A DNA stretch of 64,000 bases from Flavisolibacter longurius. GTDB lineage: Bacteria > Bacteroidota > Bacteroidia > Chitinophagales > Chitinophagaceae. Within the stretch, counting starts at the first letter, position 1. Each line of letters opens with the position of its first letter. The stretch lies in contig JACJGO010000002.1 in the NCBI GenBank assembly GCA_014163555.1, positions 62,001-126,000 of the forward strand, in the 5' to 3' direction. Positions 46,395 to 53,849 of the stretch are shown here, piece after piece. A program made the translations under genes and the position numbers. The notes under the pieces were generated by a model, which saw only the letters and a list, made by a program, of their open reading frames with translations, did not search any database and had not been told where the DNA came from.

Positions 46395-46736
46395 CTATCT
46401 TGAAATTGCCGTGATCACAAAGTTCTCTACGCAGCAGGGAGTCGATCCTATTTGAGGCGTATCCTTTACTTCGCCGCTGATCGTTACTGTCAGGTCATGT
46501 TGGTAATACGCCATCGGAAGGTTGCAAGGTAGCAGCCTAGTATCGATAGCACCTTCTTCAACAAGGTAAACCGGCTCTGAAATGGTAGCCGTTAGTTTCA
46601 CGGTAGCTCTTTTGTTGCTAACCTGTCTTGTGGTTGCCAGGTTGGCAAAGCAGGGAGTTGCTTTGTTTTCTTTTTTGCAGGAGGCAGACACACCGGATAA
46701 GGCAAACAGTGCCATCCACATTGCGCCAAATCGCAT
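46395..46736 (-). CDS. Putative lipoprotein, hypothetical
   Basis: A reading of 113 residues beginning MRFGAMWMALFALSGVSASCKKENK. The hydrophobic stretch followed by SASCKKE is the common Bacteroidota lipoprotein pattern, with the Cys as lipidated +1 residue, though the lipobox is not strict. The mature part has LATTRQVSNKRATVKLTATISEPVYLVEEGA and DLTVTISGEVKD, beta-rich, and two cysteines in a TPCC motif near the end. A longer frame starts at 46814. Function unknown. It sits 130 bases downstream of the stressosome operon's last gene and may not be co-transcribed. Confidence 0.55.
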   Translation of the reverse strand: MRFGAMWMALFALSGVSASCKKENKATPCFANLATTRQVSNKRATVKLTATISEPVYLVEEGAIDTRLLPCNLPMAYYQHDLTVTISGEVKDTPQIGSTPCCVENFVITAISR

Positions 46737-46865
46737 AAGAAGTTTTTTGATTGACAACGGCCCGCTACCAAACGTTGCACCGATTACCCCACCAATTTGA
46801 TTGGTGTTTGCCATTTAAACAACGCATAGTGGCCGAAACGGCCCTTTCGCTGTATGGAAAGAAAG

Positions 46866-47297
46866 CTATTTTTTATTGCCATTGACGCCAATGACGTTGC
46901 AGAGGGCATAAAAACTGTTTGCCGTTTCGATAGAGTCTTTGTACGAAGCCGGTTTGATCACATAGGAATGTGCTCCCAGGGCAAGGCACTCTTCTTTTTC
47001 CCTTGGATTGAGCGAGGTGGAAAAAATAATCACCGGGATGTTTTGCAGCGCCTCTACTCCCTTTATGTGCCGTAAAGTTTGTTTGCCATTGAGTTTCGGC
47101 ATGTTCAGGTCCAGCACAATCATGCTGGGCAGGCTGTTTTCGGCCAGACACTGGTCCAGATAACGGATCGCTTCTTCGCCGTTTTCTTCGTAATGGATGC
47201 AGGAACCGTAACCCAATTCATCAAAGGCATCGCTCAACAGCATGCAGTCCTCTTCATCATCGTCTACCATCAGTATGGATACGCAACTCATTTTCAT
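46866..47297 (-). CDS. Single-domain response regulator of the stressosome operon
   Basis: A 143-residue CheY-like receiver with no output domain. The acidic pocket is Asp12-Asp14 in LMVDDDEED, the phosphoacceptor Asp63 in IVLDLNMPKLNG, the switch Thr/Ser94 in IIFSTS and Lys115 in YVIKPAS. This is the receiver type often paired with PAS-HisKA kinases, acting as a phosphate shuttle or by protein contact. Its ATG overlaps the stop of the preceding kinase (ATGA), so it is the last gene of the rsbR-S-T-X-kinase operon and the probable first acceptor of that kinase. Confidence 0.92.
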   Translation of the reverse strand: MKMSCVSILMVDDDEEDCMLLSDAFDELGYGSCIHYEENGEEAIRYLDQCLAENSLPSMIVLDLNMPKLNGKQTLRHIKGVEALQNIPVIIFSTSLNPREKEECLALGAHSYVIKPASYKDSIETANSFYALCNVIGVNGNKK

Positions 47298-48940
47298 TCC
47301 CCTTTCGCTTGAGTAATCGGCAAGGTAATCACAAAGGTAGAACCCTCTCCCACCCGGCTACGGGCCGTGATGCTGCCGTGGTGCAATGCTACAATTTTCT
47401 GGCAAATGGCAAGTCCTAGCCCGGTGCCGCTATACTTTTCGGATGAATGCAGTCGCTGGAAAAGCGTAAACATTTGCGGCAGGTATTTTTCATCGAAGCC
47501 GATCCCGTTGTCCTGGATCTGGATCTGCAGGGCATTGTCTTCCTGTTCTGCCCATACGTTCACCACCGGTTTTACCCCTTCCTGCGAATACTTAATGGCA
47601 TTGCTCAGCAGGTTTTCAAACAACTGGTGCAGCATGTTTTCGTCGGCTTCAATCAGGGGCATGGGTTCTATGTTCACGGTGGCCCCTCTTTCCTCGATGG
47701 CTATCTCCAGGTCCTGCAGTACTTCATGGGTAACCTGGTTCAGGTTGATCGGTTTCAGTTTCAGTCCCCGTTGCTCTACCTGGGCAAAGGCAAGCAGGTC
47801 GTTGATCAGGCTGCGCATGCGCCGGGATGCCGATTGCATGTTCAGGAGGTAGTCCATTCCTTTTTCATCCAGAACGGATTCATATTTCGATACCAGGTAA
47901 TCGCTGTAAAAGCTCAGCTTGCGGGCCGGCTCCTGCAGGTCGTGCGAGGCTACGTAGGCAAACTCCTGCAACTCGCGGTTGCTGCGGGCCAGCTCCGAAA
48001 TATTTTTCTCCAGCGCCACCTGGTGCTGTTTTAAACGGTGCTGGGTCTCTTTGAGTTCTTTGTTGTCGAGCAGGGTTTCTTCCACCAGCTTTTGTGCGTT
48101 GATGTCCACAATATAGCCGATCCAGTAAAGCAGCTTTCCGCCTTCGTCGTACAGGGGAGAAACAGAAGCCAGGTGCCAATAGTAGTCTTCCTCACCCCTG
48201 TGGCGTATGCGGCACTGGGTTTTCACCACAGAGGCACCCTGCGGCAGGTGTGGGTTCATAAGAATGGCAAACGCATCATAATCTTCAGGATGCACCACCG
48301 TCCTCCACCCCTTGTGATTGAGCTGGTCGATGCTATAACCGGTAAACCGCTTGAGCCATTCGTTGGCGTAAATCAGCTTGCTCTCATGATCCAAAGAAAA
48401 AATGATCAGGGGCAGCGCATTGGTGAGCGTCTGGTACTGGTGTTCAATTTCTTTCAGGCGCTGGGTCAGGTCCTGCAACTGTTCGTTCTTGCGCTTGATC
48501 TCCTCGTAGGGTGACAAGGCCGGTTCGTTGCGAAAAAGAGCCCGCCATTCGTCCAGCACCTGTACATCCAGTTTTACCAGCGTTGGAATGCTGTAATAAA
48601 GCTCGATGGAGACTTCTTCCCCCGAAACGGAAATGTTGTATTTATTCACCAGGCGTTTGGCGTTTTCCAAGCCTTCGTTGGTTTTTTTCCGCTGATCATC
48701 TTCGGTGATGCGGGCCACAATGTATTTTTCCCGCAACCCGTTGGCCACATTCAATATAAGGCAACCATCCCTCCCGTGTTCGATGGTGCTCCTGGCTACT
48801 TCGGAAACCGCTGTGGCAAACGTGGTTTGCGCCGACAAGGAAAGCCCCGCCAGCTCGGCCAGGCGCATGCTGCGCCGGTGGGCCAGGATCAGGTCCATCT
48901 CGTTTTGTAATGTTACCCTTACCAATTCCTGCATCTTCAT
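47294..48940 (-). CDS. Hybrid: degenerate RsbT-like domain plus PAS plus histidine kinase
   Basis: A 548-residue soluble protein. Residues 1-119 look like an RsbT-type anti-sigma ATPase domain that has lost its ATP site: the N-box is TAVSEVARSTIEHG (Ser51 where Asn is expected) and the DxGxG and glycine-lid boxes are missing (ITEDDQRKKTNEGLENAKRLVNKYNIS). A PAS domain follows (about 172-285, NALPLIIFSLDHESKLIYANEWLKRFTGYSIDQL...), then a coiled coil and the HisKA motif EFAYVASHDLQEPARK with His333. A complete HATPase_c follows (LFENLLSNAIKYS, DNGIGFDEKY, GTGLGLAICQKIV). It overlaps the neighbours on both sides by four bases. The layout suggests stressosome-controlled kinase activity. Confidence 0.9.
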   Translation of the reverse strand: MKMQELVRVTLQNEMDLILAHRRSMRLAELAGLSLSAQTTFATAVSEVARSTIEHGRDGCLILNVANGLREKYIVARITEDDQRKKTNEGLENAKRLVNKYNISVSGEEVSIELYYSIPTLVKLDVQVLDEWRALFRNEPALSPYEEIKRKNEQLQDLTQRLKEIEHQYQTLTNALPLIIFSLDHESKLIYANEWLKRFTGYSIDQLNHKGWRTVVHPEDYDAFAILMNPHLPQGASVVKTQCRIRHRGEEDYYWHLASVSPLYDEGGKLLYWIGYIVDINAQKLVEETLLDNKELKETQHRLKQHQVALEKNISELARSNRELQEFAYVASHDLQEPARKLSFYSDYLVSKYESVLDEKGMDYLLNMQSASRRMRSLINDLLAFAQVEQRGLKLKPINLNQVTHEVLQDLEIAIEERGATVNIEPMPLIEADENMLHQLFENLLSNAIKYSQEGVKPVVNVWAEQEDNALQIQIQDNGIGFDEKYLPQMFTLFQRLHSSEKYSGTGLGLAICQKIVALHHGSITARSRVGEGSTFVITLPITQAKGE

Positions 48941-49953
48941 ACATTCAGTTTACAGCTTGCGATCGACATATCGTCGGTATTGCGTGCATACTCTTTGAAA
49001 AGTACTGCATTCAGCAATGAAAGGTCGTTTCGTAAAATGCCCGGAAACTTCAGGACATCCCATTTCGATTTCAGGCCATCGCTGCAAAGAATAATGCACT
49101 GGCCCTTTTCGTACGGAATCTCCTGGTCGTTCATGGAGTTGGGCATGTTAAGTCCAACAATCCCGTTGTAGGGGTTGTGGTTTTTTATAAGGGTAGGACC
49201 GAAAAAGCGGGTGCTGATATTGCCAACACCGCAAATCTTCCAGCTTTTTTCCTTGATATGAAAAACAGCGACCGTGGCTACCAGGCCACGGGTTCGTTTC
49301 ACATGCTGGTTGATGTACCGCAGAATTTCCACGGCACTGTCTTCCGGGCAAAGCTTAAAGGCTTCGATGGCTTTTTGTACAGCGAGGGCGGCGTCCTTGC
49401 CGTGGCCCAGGCCATCGCCCAAAAACAGCTTGATATGTTCTTTTGTTTGTTTGTAATAAAAGCCGTCGCCACACTCCTCCTCTCCCGGCTTGGGCACAAC
49501 AAACGACCGGATCTCTACGGGATCAAGCCTTTTTTCCGGGGAAATTTCTTTTGTAAAAATGCGGCAGAGTAAAATGGTGCCCCAGCCTTTTTGCGTGAAC
49601 ACCTGGAACTGGTGCGAAAGCCGCCGGATGGCGCCCAGGCCCTGTCCCAGTGAATTTTTGGTGCTGGCCCCGTCCTGCATCATGGCCCGCAGGTCGGTTA
49701 TGCCCGGGCCGCTGTCGATGGCAATGATCTCGATGCCCTGGAGGCCTTTTTCCTCTACGAGCTTTACGAACACTTCTCCTCCGCCGGCATGACGGGCCAG
49801 GTTGGAAACAATTTCGGCTACGATGATGTCAATCTCACCAATCCGCCGGGCACTGAACTTTGCTTCCACCGCCAGTGCATGCACGCTTTTTTTCAGGATG
49901 GCGAAATAACTGCGGTCGGCCGCATTTAACCGAAAATGCACTGCGTTAACCAT
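48937..49953 (-). CDS. RsbT-like ATPase fused to SpoIIE/RsbX-type phosphatase
   Basis: A 338-residue protein with two domains. Residues about 1-135 are an anti-sigma-type HATPase with an intact ATP site: IDIIVAEIVSNLARHAGGGE (Asn51), IDSGPGITD (Asp80-Gly84) and STKNSLGQGLGAIRRLS (lid). Residues about 145-338 form a PP2C/SpoIIE phosphatase of the RsbX type: KLFLGDGLGHGKDAALA (Asp180), CIILCSDGLKSKWD and the C-terminal RNTDDMSIAS. RsbX dephosphorylates stressosome STAS proteins and resets them. The fused ATPase may add its own serine kinase activity or docking. It overlaps the downstream kinase gene by four bases (ATGA) and the RsbT gene upstream by eight. Confidence 0.9.
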   Translation of the reverse strand: MVNAVHFRLNAADRSYFAILKKSVHALAVEAKFSARRIGEIDIIVAEIVSNLARHAGGGEVFVKLVEEKGLQGIEIIAIDSGPGITDLRAMMQDGASTKNSLGQGLGAIRRLSHQFQVFTQKGWGTILLCRIFTKEISPEKRLDPVEIRSFVVPKPGEEECGDGFYYKQTKEHIKLFLGDGLGHGKDAALAVQKAIEAFKLCPEDSAVEILRYINQHVKRTRGLVATVAVFHIKEKSWKICGVGNISTRFFGPTLIKNHNPYNGIVGLNMPNSMNDQEIPYEKGQCIILCSDGLKSKWDVLKFPGILRNDLSLLNAVLFKEYARNTDDMSIASCKLNV

Positions 49954-50359
49954 TCTTCCACTTTATAACAGTCACCGTTGTTCCTTTACCGACTACGCTC
50001 TGGATGTCAAATTCACTGACAAGGCGTTTGGCCCCGGGAAGCCCGAGCCCCAGGCTTTTGCCGGTGGAGTAGCCATCTTTCATGGCCAGCGGAATGTCTT
50101 TAATGCCCGGGCCCTTGTCCTGAAAGGTCAGCCGGATGCCGTTTTCGCGGCCCTTGCTCACCACTTCAATCAGCGTAGTGCCGCCGCCGGCGTATTTCAG
50201 CATGTTCCGCACCAGTTCGGAAGCGGCCGTAATTAGTTTGGTCTGGTTCACCAGGCTCATCCCGATCTTGACGGCGTATTCTTTTACACGGTTTCGAAAC
50301 GGCACAACATCCTGTTCACGCTGGATGGGTAAACTGTCTTTATTCAGTACCACTATCAT
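49946..50359 (-). CDS. rsbT: RsbT-type serine kinase (stressosome switch)
   Basis: A 137-residue GHKL-type protein kinase. The ATP site is intact: N-box AASELVRNMLKYAGGG (Asn52), G1 box FQDKGPGIKD (Asp81-Gly85), and lid YSTGKSLGLGLPGAKRLV (98-113). In stressosomes RsbT phosphorylates RsbS and RsbR and is then released to act on a downstream partner. The canonical partner RsbU is not in this window. The start is taken at 50359 (MIVVLNKD), the usual RsbT opening; another ATG at 50386 would add nine residues and a longer overlap with rsbS. Confidence 0.9.
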   Translation of the reverse strand: MIVVLNKDSLPIQREQDVVPFRNRVKEYAVKIGMSLVNQTKLITAASELVRNMLKYAGGGTTLIEVVSKGRENGIRLTFQDKGPGIKDIPLAMKDGYSTGKSLGLGLPGAKRLVSEFDIQSVVGKGTTVTVIKWKNG

Positions 50360-50744
50360 CGCGTTCTTCCTCCCCCAAGTTTTCAAAAGAACCGATTTTA
50401 TGATGCAACAAAGCCATGCCTTTTTCTACGTTGAGTGCTGTGCTGACGCCCCGCAATTCGAGCCCCAGTTCAATGAGCGTAATGGCCACTGCGGGCTGCA
50501 TGCCCACCACTACGGTTTCGGCATCCATAATCTTGCTCATGTTGCCGATGTTGCCAATGATGCGGCCCATAAACGAATCGACAATCGACAAGGCGGAGAT
50601 GTCAATTAAAACGCCTCTTGCCCCCGTCTTGCTCACCATCTGTACCAGGTCACTTTCCAGGTTCAATGCAAGACGGTCATACAGATCTACCTGAATGGTT
50701 ACAAGTAGAAATTTGCCCATCTGCAGAATTGGTATTCTATCCAT
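50340..50744 (-). CDS. rsbS: RsbS-type STAS stressosome scaffold protein
   Basis: A 134-residue single STAS domain. It starts MDRIPILQMGKFLLVTIQVDLYDR, the hallmark of RsbS, and holds GVLIDISALSIVDSFMGRIIGNI with Ser57 in the place of the RsbS phosphorylation site. The next segment is ETVVVGMQPAVAITLIELGL. RsbS forms the core of the stressosome with RsbR and holds RsbT until stress. The ~15-residue acidic tail (GEEERDDSGTE) is longer than in Bacillus RsbS. Its end overlaps the rsbT start, and it begins six bases after the rsbR stop. Confidence 0.93.
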   Translation of the reverse strand: MDRIPILQMGKFLLVTIQVDLYDRLALNLESDLVQMVSKTGARGVLIDISALSIVDSFMGRIIGNIGNMSKIMDAETVVVGMQPAVAITLIELGLELRGVSTALNVEKGMALLHHKIGSFENLGEEERDDSGTE

Positions 50745-50750
50745 AAGAGG

Positions 50751-51617
50751 CTATAAGATTGATTTTTCTTTGGTGGTTTTTCTCACTTCCAGGTGGGTCA
50801 TGGTAAAGGCATATTTCAATGCACTGGCCAGGGTCGCCTTTGTGATGATGTTGGAAAGATCGATACCCAGGTGAACAACGGTTTGTGCAATCTCCGGACG
50901 AATGCCACTAATGATACATTCGGCACCCATCAGGCGGGTGGCACTAACGGTCTTGATCAGGTGTTGTGCTACCAGCGAATCCACGGCCGGCACACCGGAA
51001 ATATCCAAAATGGCAATGCTGCTGCCGGTTTCTACAATCTGCTGCAGCAGGTTCTCCATCACCACCTGTGTACGGGCACTGTCCAGCGTACCAATGATGG
51101 GCAAGGCCAGGATACCTTCCCATACTCGGATCACCGGTGTAGAGATCTCCGCAATTTCGTCGGTCTGGCGAAGGATCACTTCTTCCCGACCTTTGATAAA
51201 GGTTTCAAACGTGGCAATACCAAAGGAGTCAATCAGCTTACTCATTTTAATGGTAAGCGTGTACAGGGTAGCCGGATCGTTCTTGATCTCGTTCTGCAGC
51301 GCCTGCAGCAGGGAATCTTTCAGGCTGAACACATAAGCGCCGGTTTCGCGGGGCGAAAATCCCTGGCGTGCCCGGGAAATGGAAACCCCGGAAAGAATCT
51401 CCAGAACGGGATCAAAATCGCTGGCCAGTGTATCAGAAATGTTTCTGTCGTTGACGGTTTTGACCAATTCGTTCACCAACTCTTCCGACTGGCTGCGCAA
51501 ATCTTCATTGCTCATCAGGTCATCCCGCAGGCTTTCATCGGCCAACTGATTCTTCATCCACTGTTCTAAGATCTGCTTTTTGTTTTTCTGAAGCAGTTTG
51601 GAGATATCTACTTTCAT
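50751..51617 (-). CDS. rsbR: RsbR-type stressosome sensor (RsbRD N-terminal domain plus STAS)
   Basis: A 288-residue protein. Residues about 5-150 form an all-helical RsbRD-type sensor (LLQKNKKQILEQWMKNQLAD..., FSPRETGAYVFSLKDSLLQALQNEI) rather than the heme-free globin of Bacillus RsbRA. A linker helix (EEVILRQTDEIAEISTPVIRVWEGILALPIIGTLDSART) joins a C-terminal STAS domain with AILDISGVPAVDSLVAQHLIKTV and ECIISGIRPEIAQTVVHLGIDL. The two positions phosphorylated by RsbT on Thr in Bacillus appear as Ser214 (VDS) and Ser237 (ISG). First gene of the operon; the ATG at 51617 is preferred to an earlier in-frame one at 51752. Confidence 0.93.
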   Translation of the reverse strand: MKVDISKLLQKNKKQILEQWMKNQLADESLRDDLMSNEDLRSQSEELVNELVKTVNDRNISDTLASDFDPVLEILSGVSISRARQGFSPRETGAYVFSLKDSLLQALQNEIKNDPATLYTLTIKMSKLIDSFGIATFETFIKGREEVILRQTDEIAEISTPVIRVWEGILALPIIGTLDSARTQVVMENLLQQIVETGSSIAILDISGVPAVDSLVAQHLIKTVSATRLMGAECIISGIRPEIAQTVVHLGIDLSNIITKATLASALKYAFTMTHLEVRKTTKEKSIL

Positions 51618-52046: not shown

Positions 52047-53849
52047 TTGGAAAAGAATGCAACAGCCAACGCTCACTACCTCCATATATTAGAACACCTG
52101 TTTGAGGGCCTGGCAACCGATGCCCTGCAAACCATCTTGGATGCGGGGCAGAAGCACCGGCTGGAACCCGGCGATTACCTTTTTCAACAAGGCGACCGGA
52201 ACACGGCGCTTTATGTTGTGCTTTCCGGGCGGCTGCGGGCTGTGGTGCAGGATGGCAGCGGCATGCACATCCTGGGTGATATTGCCGAAGGAGAGCCCAC
52301 TGGCGAGTTTGCCCTTTTTACCAACGAGCCGCGCATGGCCTCCGTACTGGCCATCCGCAAAACAACGGTACTGGAAATCACAAAGGAAGAATACCTGGCC
52401 CTGGTGGCGCAAAACCCCGCCTTTGCCAGCACTCTCACTTCTTTCCTGATCAAACGGATGAAGCGAAACATCTTGGAGCAACACCTGAGTGCCACCCCCC
52501 GGAATATTGCCCTCATCAACCTGCAGGCCAGCCACGATATCAGCCCCTGGACAGATGATATCCAACGCACCCTTGCCGACAGCGGCATCCCGATCCGGAT
52601 CATTGACCACAACTCGCAGCCGGAAGCGCCACATGCCACCGTTTTCGATTCGCTGGAACAGCATAGTGGGCTCAATATCCTCGTATGCTCCGAAGAGCGT
52701 GCCGAGTGGTCAAGGCAAAGCCTGCTTTATGCCGACCTGGTGATTGTGGCCACGGATTTTAGGGCCGATCCCGGCCTCTACCCGATTGAAAAAGCCCTGG
52801 ACCTTTATACCCAAAGCATTTTAAACCGCAAGATCTACATTGTTTTTTTGCATGAAAACGTCAGTGAGTTGCCGCAGAAAACAGACCGCTGGCTGACACC
52901 CCGCAAGGTAAACCTGCACATTCATGTGCGCCGTAACCACCCCTCGGATATCCGCCGGTTTTGCCGCATTATTTCCAATCAGGCCGTAGGCGTTGTGCTG
53001 GGCGGCGGCGGGGCCAAGGGATATGCGCATGTAGGCGCCCTGCGGGCCCTGCTGGAAGCCGGCGTTGAGATCGACTTCCTGGGCGGCACCAGCGCCGGAG
53101 CCCTGTATGGCATTGCCATGAGCCATTGCGATTTTGATTTTGAAAAAATTGATGCGCTGTGTGCCGATTCGGCCCGCCGCCGGCTGACCACCAACGATTA
53201 TTCCTGGCCCCTTGTGTCGATTATGAGCGGACGGAAAATGACGCGTTTTATGCGGGATATGTTTGGCGATGCCGAACTGGAAGACATCTGGGTGAACTCC
53301 TACTGCGTGTCCACCAACTTTTCGGGCTCCGGCTCCCGGGTGCACGACCGGGGCCCCATCACCAAAATGGTGCAGGCCAGCATTGCCATCCCGGGGGTGT
53401 TCCCGCCGGTGGTGATTGAGCAGCAGTTGCATGTGGACGGCTGCGTGGTGGATAACCTGCCGGTGGAGCCAATGTACCGCTACCCGGTACGGCACATCAT
53501 TGCCATTTCGCTTTCTACCCTGTCGGCGCGGCGGGTGGATTATGCCGAAACGCCGACCGTGGGCATGCTGCTCTGGGACAGGATCACGGGCAGAAGGCGG
53601 TACCGGGTTCCGGGCATTGCCTCGCTGATCATTAATTCGCTGACACTGAACAGCCGGCAGCGGCAGGAAGCCACCAGGGCCAAGGTGTCGCTGTACATTG
53701 AAATGGACCTGAAAGGGATTGGCCTGCTGGATGATAAAAAATGGAGTTATACCCTGAAAAAAGGCCACGACCTAGTAAAGGCTTACCTGGAGACGCTGCC
53801 GGAAGAGGAAAAGTTTTGGTTGAAAAAAGATTGGGGGAGGAATAGATGA
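52047..53849 (+). CDS. Cyclic-nucleotide-binding patatin-like phospholipase (NTE type)
   Basis: A 600-residue protein. Residues about 15-130 form a cNMP-binding domain (LEPGDYLFQQGDRNTALYVVLSGRLRAVV, GEPTGEFALFTNEPRMASVLAIRKTTVLEITKEEY). A middle Rossmann-like region (about 150-305) follows. Residues about 312-500 form a patatin domain with the oxyanion-hole GGGGAKG (319-325), nucleophile Ser349 in GTSAG and catalytic Asp464 in VDGCVVDNLPV. The architecture matches bacterial neuropathy-target-esterase homologues that hydrolyse lysophospholipids. No membrane helix. The start is a TTG at 52047; no ATG exists upstream in frame before a stop at 51963. Divergent from the stressosome operon. Confidence 0.9.
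   Translation: MEKNATANAHYLHILEHLFEGLATDALQTILDAGQKHRLEPGDYLFQQGDRNTALYVVLSGRLRAVVQDGSGMHILGDIAEGEPTGEFALFTNEPRMASVLAIRKTTVLEITKEEYLALVAQNPAFASTLTSFLIKRMKRNILEQHLSATPRNIALINLQASHDISPWTDDIQRTLADSGIPIRIIDHNSQPEAPHATVFDSLEQHSGLNILVCSEERAEWSRQSLLYADLVIVATDFRADPGLYPIEKALDLYTQSILNRKIYIVFLHENVSELPQKTDRWLTPRKVNLHIHVRRNHPSDIRRFCRIISNQAVGVVLGGGGAKGYAHVGALRALLEAGVEIDFLGGTSAGALYGIAMSHCDFDFEKIDALCADSARRRLTTNDYSWPLVSIMSGRKMTRFMRDMFGDAELEDIWVNSYCVSTNFSGSGSRVHDRGPITKMVQASIAIPGVFPPVVIEQQLHVDGCVVDNLPVEPMYRYPVRHIIAISLSTLSARRVDYAETPTVGMLLWDRITGRRRYRVPGIASLIINSLTLNSRQRQEATRAKVSLYIEMDLKGIGLLDDKKWSYTLKKGHDLVKAYLETLPEEEKFWLKKDWGRNR

Follow-up and report, generated by a model that had tools for sequence, protein, structure and literature searches.

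How the signal leaves stressosomes that have no sigma B is an open question, and in the survey by Heinz et al. most of the downstream proteins carry no detected RsbU_N domain (PMC9237108). The question is raised by a six-gene operon in a stretch of 64,000 nucleotides from Flavisolibacter longurius (contig JACJGO010000002.1, positions 62,001 to 126,000), referred to here as the window. The operon lies on the minus strand at 46866-51617, its genes overlap or almost touch as read from the sequence, and it encodes RsbR, RsbS, RsbT, an RsbX-type phosphatase (gene 4), a histidine kinase and a CheY-like receiver. We propose from sequence and structure prediction, tentatively and at slightly less than an even chance, that the output of this stressosome would be the histidine kinase of the operon, coupled to the complex through an N-terminal domain derived from RsbT. 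The proposal draws on the gene content and its conservation, the homology and predicted fold of this domain, its loss of ATP motifs, the co-occurrence of the genes and a genome in which no sigma-B branch was found.

The compact set of six minus-strand genes in the preliminary description, which was made from the DNA letters, was recovered in full, with Pfam domain calls above the curated cut-offs for all six proteins, and the motifs named there are present and conserved in relatives. In gene order, RsbR and RsbS are separated by a gap of 6 nucleotides while the later genes overlap by 20, 8, 4 and 4 nucleotides. A histidine kinase had been listed, and its HisKA and HATPase domains were confirmed, but the protein also starts with an RsbT-derived domain. 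Its order is a pseudo-RsbT domain (amino acids 1 to about 120), a helix, a PAS domain (about 179-279), a long helix, HisKA with the phosphoacceptor His333, and HATPase_c. Identical sequences were collapsed before residues were counted, and the 22-, 80- and 7-locus sets described below overlap in species. His333 was conserved in 99/99 sequences and the N and G boxes were intact in 97/99, the other two being gapped.

The N-terminal domain of the kinase matched RsbT (BLASTP E 3e-10), and an AlphaFold2 model of the first 150 amino acids had a predicted local distance difference test score (pLDDT) of 89.1. By homology and predicted fold, the domain belongs to the RsbT/RsbW-type GHKL proteins. The full-length model (pLDDT 83.5) had a low predicted template modelling score (0.42) and was therefore used for the domain order alone. 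When PDB sequences were searched with the pseudo-RsbT domain as a profile, there was no match at E<=1, and an RsbT profile matched SpoIIAB and histidine kinases in the PDB with no chain named RsbT at E<=0.001. The domain differs from the RsbW/SpoIIAB anti-sigma GHKL kinases in that its ATP lid and G1 box are gone and in that it is fused to a histidine kinase.

The window's pseudo-RsbT domain is without the N-box Asn, the G1 box and the ATP lid, and alpha-1 and alpha-2 are conserved. The G1 box was lost in 98 of 100 distinct kinase N-terminal domains from 110 loci. Across this 110-locus set RsbT has 57 positions that are at least 90% conserved, and the kinase domain, leaving out the intact copies of loci L063 and L131, has the identical residue at ten of them (E15, D17, Q39, T40, T44, A45, S47, E48, R51 and L113 of RsbT), nine of which sit on the first two helices of the AlphaFold2 model. 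Asp16, Thr43 and Ala44 of the pseudo-RsbT domain are invariant (98/98). The RsbT-like front of RsbX retains 17 of the 57 positions, mostly in the N-box, G1, lid, G2 and GT motifs, and E48 and L113 are the sole positions common to the two retained lists. The two copies have worn in complementary ways, the RsbX front preserving catalytic motifs and the histidine kinase a helix face, and this hints at the part of RsbT that would bind the core. Seven RsbT proteins from operons that lack this kinase have D17, T40, S47 and E48 in 7/7, T44 in six, Q39, A45 and R51 in 5/7 and E15 in 1/7 (Asp in four), and since they share most of the positions, the retained helix motif is largely a general RsbT feature. 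The N-terminus of the kinase is thus a worn copy of RsbT, probably acting as a docking tag.

Gene 4 had been described as an RsbT-like/SpoIIE fusion, and the two-domain arrangement stands while the phosphatase part is corrected to an RsbX-like one. The closest solved structures to its PP2C part are 3zt9 (E 1.4e-17), from Moorella, and RsbX 3w40 (3.4e-11), and gene 4 was therefore read as RsbX, the feedback phosphatase, bearing an RsbT-like front; RsbU was rejected as an identity on the same matches. The catalytic PP2C residues Asp180, Asp292, Asp327 and Asp328 were conserved in 97/97 distinct sequences. The front keeps its ATP site, with G1 present in 97/98 distinct relatives.

The remaining stressosome core was well conserved. 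RsbR residues 3-278 of 288 match the solved stressosome RsbR 7b0u (E 5.4e-36), and RsbS residues 4-118 of 134 match the solved RsbS 6qcm (E 3.3e-30). Ser214 of RsbR was Ser in 94 of 97 distinct sequences and Thr in two more, Thr246 was conserved in 95/97 (the two sites are numbered 259 and 291 if the frame is taken 45 codons longer), and Ser57 of RsbS was invariant (97/97). The ATP-site motifs of RsbT (N box, G1 and G2) were intact in 98/98 distinct relatives. The proteins thus have, by sequence, the make-up of an RsbRST stressosome, namely a sensor plus STAS RsbR, a single-STAS RsbS, a GHKL RsbT and a PP2C RsbX. A locus from the window's genus (L044:9981-11841) has a tandem pair of rsbR genes ahead of rsbS, which suggests a second sensor subunit, and in Sediminibacterium roseum (L156) R-S-T is duplicated to give R-S-T-R-S-T-X-kinase-receiver.

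In the mechanism that we propose, the RsbR/RsbS core, the kinase RsbT and the phosphatase RsbX would form the stressosome, and the physical link to the histidine kinase is probably the pseudo-RsbT domain of the kinase itself. As two RsbT helices are kept, this domain would dock at the RsbT site on the RsbS/RsbR STAS core, and in the absence of stress the complex would retain the kinase along with RsbT. Under stress, RsbT would phosphorylate RsbS Ser57 and RsbR Ser214/Thr246 and the docking site would be lost. The freed pseudo-RsbT part would then relay a change through the helical linker and PAS to HisKA, and phosphate could pass to the stand-alone receiver where one is present. RsbX would reach its phosphorylated substrates through its similar RsbT-like tag and would reset the complex. 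The docking on RsbS/RsbR, the release on phosphorylation, the sign of the effect on the kinase and the phosphotransfer to the receiver are what we infer. A kinase with a degenerate RsbT would offer a concrete link from a Ser/Thr partner-switching complex to His-Asp signalling, and would be a case of a switch kinase converted to a docking module.

The kinase and the stressosome genes are closely linked. Among 195 genomes of the family, the first 160 residues of the kinase matched 22 and rsbS turned up in 21, all of them among the 22; the contig of the extra genome ends inside rsbT. Within a phylum sample of 395 genomes, rsbS was found in 14, and a strong match to the kinase domain (E<=3.2e-40) occurred in eight, every one with rsbS; these eight are all of the rsbS genomes of the window's class in the sample. 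A wider pattern scan covered one genome per species for 84,980 species and kept the best 80 of 311 relatives; it used peptides of the kinase N-terminal domain and so favours the worn form, and its closest named relatives were Chitinophagaceae such as Flavisolibacter and Cnuella. The gene order of the preliminary description was sought again in Bacteroidota, and an unbroken R-S-T-X-kinase run was present at 21/22 family loci, 77/80 loci of the wider scan and 7/7 loci from other families of the class. Chance clustering of the genes was rejected on this recurrence. Four loci were without the full order, of which three (L049, L166 and L178) are cut by contig ends and the fourth is L162, considered below.

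The absence of RsbU, RsbV, RsbW and sigma B that had been noted for the window extends to the genome as searched (99.82% complete, 58 contigs). SpoIIE had a single match genome-wide, which lies in the window operon, and no RsbU with a PP2C of its own was found. RsbU_N had no match at E<=1, with a weak model that matched 7 of 14 control genomes at that threshold and one above its cut-off. Of four STAS matches, two are RsbR and RsbS, the third is a protein of 130 amino acids with no Ser at the VDS position by eye, and the fourth, in a frame of 587 amino acids, scores below the cut-off. The third STAS gene sits two genes ahead of an RNase Z-like gene. HATPase_c_2 had 12 matches, where two short frames outside the operon are histidine kinases and the others lie in frames of at least 456 amino acids, and neither RsbV nor RsbW was seen among the STAS and HATPase_c_2 matches that were read, which were a part of the total. 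No SigB-class sigma factor was found; the three region-3 sigma factors are RpoD-like, with 104-120 bits for SigB/F/G vs a cut-off of 234. RsbR, RsbS, RsbT and RsbX homologues with conserved phosphosites are shared with the stressosome-SigB systems of Bacillus and Listeria, whereas no RsbU, RsbV, RsbW or SigB was found in this genome. That a partner-switching branch of sigma-B type at another place in the genome takes the RsbT signal, the standard arrangement in Bacillales, is therefore largely refuted and hardly credible, with no RsbU_N at that threshold, one SpoIIE, no RsbV with a Ser site found and no SigB-class factor; a hidden branch was rejected on these searches, and a small gap is possible because the assembly is in 58 contigs.

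Eight loci outside the window's class (L131-L138) were examined, and in seven of them, from other Bacteroidota, the kinase after rsbT begins with RsbU_N, six above the curated cut-off and one just under it. Five of these seven have the full R-S-T-X with an RsbX of 210-263 amino acids, which consisted of SpoIIE alone in the two tested with Pfam, and no rsbS was seen near the genes of L137 and L138. RsbU_N was found in 0/29 kinases of the window's type, and was rejected as their front. One N-terminal slot therefore holds either RsbU_N, the known binder of RsbT, or an RsbT-derived domain. L131 has a fused RsbX and an RsbT-kinase with intact ATP motifs; at L131:5687-8579 the order is R-S-T-X, a receiver-receiver-kinase and then the RsbT-kinase together with further receivers, which may make up a relay of two kinases.

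The fusion also occurs on plasmids, and its confinement to Bacteroidota was rejected on these loci. A tblastn search with RsbT matched 108 plasmid records and a second with the front of the Sphingomonas kinase matched 97, and 14 regions from 13 records were examined. Nine proteins, each from a different record, have an RsbT domain ahead of a histidine-kinase phosphoacceptor domain (Sphingomonas, Phaeobacter, Salipiger, two Paraburkholderia, Caballeronia and three Deinococcus), although in one Paraburkholderia the frame stops before the kinase ATPase domain, which sits in a second frame. The other four records, two from Variovorax and one each from Vibrio and Stenotrophomonas, showed no RsbT-kinase protein. 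Phaeobacter (L230:6216-7460) and Salipiger (L231:6289-7422) have the RsbT domain fused to a HisKA_2/HWE-type kinase, and the RsbT tag therefore seems to have been swapped between kinase types. What comes after these kinases varies; in Deinococcus psychrotolerans (L232) the RsbT-histidine kinase precedes a receiver protein whose annotation is diguanylate cyclase.

A single branch (98/96; 98% of 200 bootstrap trees) of an 89-row tree has all 26 kinase-fused domains on the same side, and another (100/97) does so for all 27 RsbX fronts. A smaller, earlier tree and this one, built on 138 and 134 columns, place L131 differently. In both, the intact domain of L063 splits off just before the worn Bacteroidota group. 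The kinase-fused domain of Caballeronia (L223, 6178-8199) is without a G1 box, perhaps lost independently of Bacteroidota; its placement is cautious because of a long branch and odd composition. It is conceivable, at somewhat less than an even chance, that RsbT serves three times in an old branch of stressosomes that spans phyla, as switch kinase, phosphatase front and kinase front, its fold addressing each bearer to the STAS core, and that the Bacteroidota kinase copy is a docking-only pseudokinase through which the stressosome would directly sequester and release the kinase.

The slot shared with RsbU_N also bears on the main rival, in which freed RsbT would form a mixed GHKL dimer with the pseudo-RsbT domain and so activate or inhibit the kinase, like RsbT and RsbU_N in Bacillus. 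Positions of the RsbT first helix are matched tentatively to B. subtilis numbering. In the window's group this helix has its own strongly conserved signature (N23 in 91, R24 in 93, K26 in 90 and E27 in 92 of 97), and in the RsbU_N group Arg occurs at 22 and at 26 (7/7 each). R19, R23 and N24 of the B. subtilis helix have been implicated in RsbU binding (PMC12143880), and the signature would fit a mixed dimer. Such a dimer would be superfluous if the kinase domain binds RsbS itself, the signature could equally serve contact between RsbT and RsbS, and we regard this pairing as unlikely.

Several observations weigh against direct docking of the kinase on the core. The residues may instead have been retained for folding or for making a dimer, and the difference of the RsbT first helix from that of the RsbU_N group would fit binding between RsbT and the kinase equally. 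The N-box Asn is still present in 28/100 kinase N-terminal domains in all, some of the worn ones included, and the G1 box is intact in the fused domains of L063, L131 and 8/9 plasmid-borne kinases, so that the domain cannot in general be called catalytically dead and the idea that it always is was dropped. The smaller tree, which was made before the plasmid rows were added, groups the L131 domain with RsbT and not with the kinase domains. At the two Variovorax loci an RsbX fusion is followed by a kinase without an RsbT domain. Finally, L162, a Chitinophagaceae contig from a metagenome-assembled genome, has the kinase with pseudo-RsbT and a receiver but none of R, S, T and X in the 6 kb upstream, and may be a relic, a case of remote wiring or a binning error. 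This locus would suit a reading in which the RsbT-derived domain is a mere dimerisation or relic domain, the kinase senses a signal of its own through PAS and the operon serves co-expression; the majority of the kinases do have a PAS domain (PAS_3 in 21/29 of the window's type). A short form of about 400 amino acids (L059 and L063 tested) had no PAS match yet kept the RsbT domain, and this together with the invariance of Asp16, Thr43 and Ala44 and the 21/21 co-occurrence with rsbS makes that reading improbable.

The preliminary description had placed the output in a phosphorelay instead of sigma B. The linkage of the kinase and the missing sigma-B branch support this, while the receiver proved not to be constant. 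The kinase/receiver pair has an intact HisKA His, N and G boxes and receiver Asp and Lys, with Asp63 conserved in 60/60 and Lys115 in 59/60 receivers. A recognisable receiver was found within 1.5 kb after the kinase at 53/80 loci of the wider scan, 14/22 of the family and 0/7 from other families, as called with the family's own profile, which more distant receivers may escape. As it was found at only part of the loci, the receiver is considered optional and the constant output would be the kinase and not the pair. For kinases that lack RsbU_N, Heinz et al. suggested that RsbT phosphorylates the histidine kinase or receiver on Ser/Thr (PMC9237108). That proposal concerned kinases with no recognised docking domain, and an RsbT-derived domain would give a simpler route by binding, making phosphorylation of this kind highly improbable here.

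Much of this arrangement has precedents. RSTX modules in Bacteroidetes and stressosome-linked phosphorelays have been described (PMC9237108), as have histidine kinases with RsbU_N beside stressosome genes (PMC9237108, PMC12143880). At the level of titles and abstracts, the literature searches turned up nothing on an RsbT-derived domain of a stressosome kinase, and Pane-Farre 2005 and 2017 could hold it. The Vibrio vulnificus VvD1/VvD2-type rsbRSTX systems (PMC9237108, PMC10014275) are alike in having R-S-T-X followed by kinase and receiver with no sigma-B branch. They differ in a single-domain RsbX and a globin-coupled RsbR, both also reported in the Heinz survey (PMC9237108), whereas the window has an RsbT-like-fronted RsbX and an RsbRD_N RsbR that is not globin-coupled by Pfam (Protoglobin 14.5 bits vs a cut-off of 25). 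Their kinases have RsbU_N or no recognised docking domain, in contrast to the RsbT-like front seen here. The RsbU_N-histidine kinases (PMC9237108, PMC12143880) likewise place a stressosome-linked input domain N-terminal to the kinase, but theirs is the RsbT-binding four-helix RsbU_N while the window's is RsbT-derived. The stressosome of Moorella thermoacetica, with an RsbU_N-type diguanylate cyclase (cited in PMC4976288, PMC12143880), is similar in its non-sigma output and differs in the output enzyme and docking domain.

Table 1. Features of the stressosome operon, in gene order, with positions in the window.
Feature	Positions	Strand	Description
rsbR	50751..51617	-	RsbRD_N sensor domain and STAS (Pfam RsbRD_N 95.3 bits, STAS 61.4)
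rsbS	50340..50744	-	Single-STAS core protein with Ser57 phosphosite; match to solved 6qcm
rsbT	49946..50359	-	Predicted switch Ser/Thr kinase (Pfam HATPase_c 48.7 bits)
rsbX-type phosphatase	48937..49953	-	RsbT-like N-terminus; Pfam HATPase_c_2 and SpoIIE (PP2C)
Histidine kinase	47294..48940	-	Pseudo-RsbT N-terminus; Pfam PAS, HisKA and HATPase_c
Pseudo-RsbT domain of kinase	48581..48940	-	First ~120 codons; RsbW/SpoIIAB-type fold
Stand-alone CheY-like receiver	46866..47297	-	Pfam Response_reg 63 bits; Asp63; without output domain

Right after the receiver, a frame of 139 amino acids on the minus strand (46395-46814) had no Pfam or NCBIfam match at E<=0.1. On the other side of the operon, a gene coding a cyclic-nucleotide-binding and patatin phospholipase protein (52047-53849, plus strand) is divergent from rsbR and lies about 430 bases from it.

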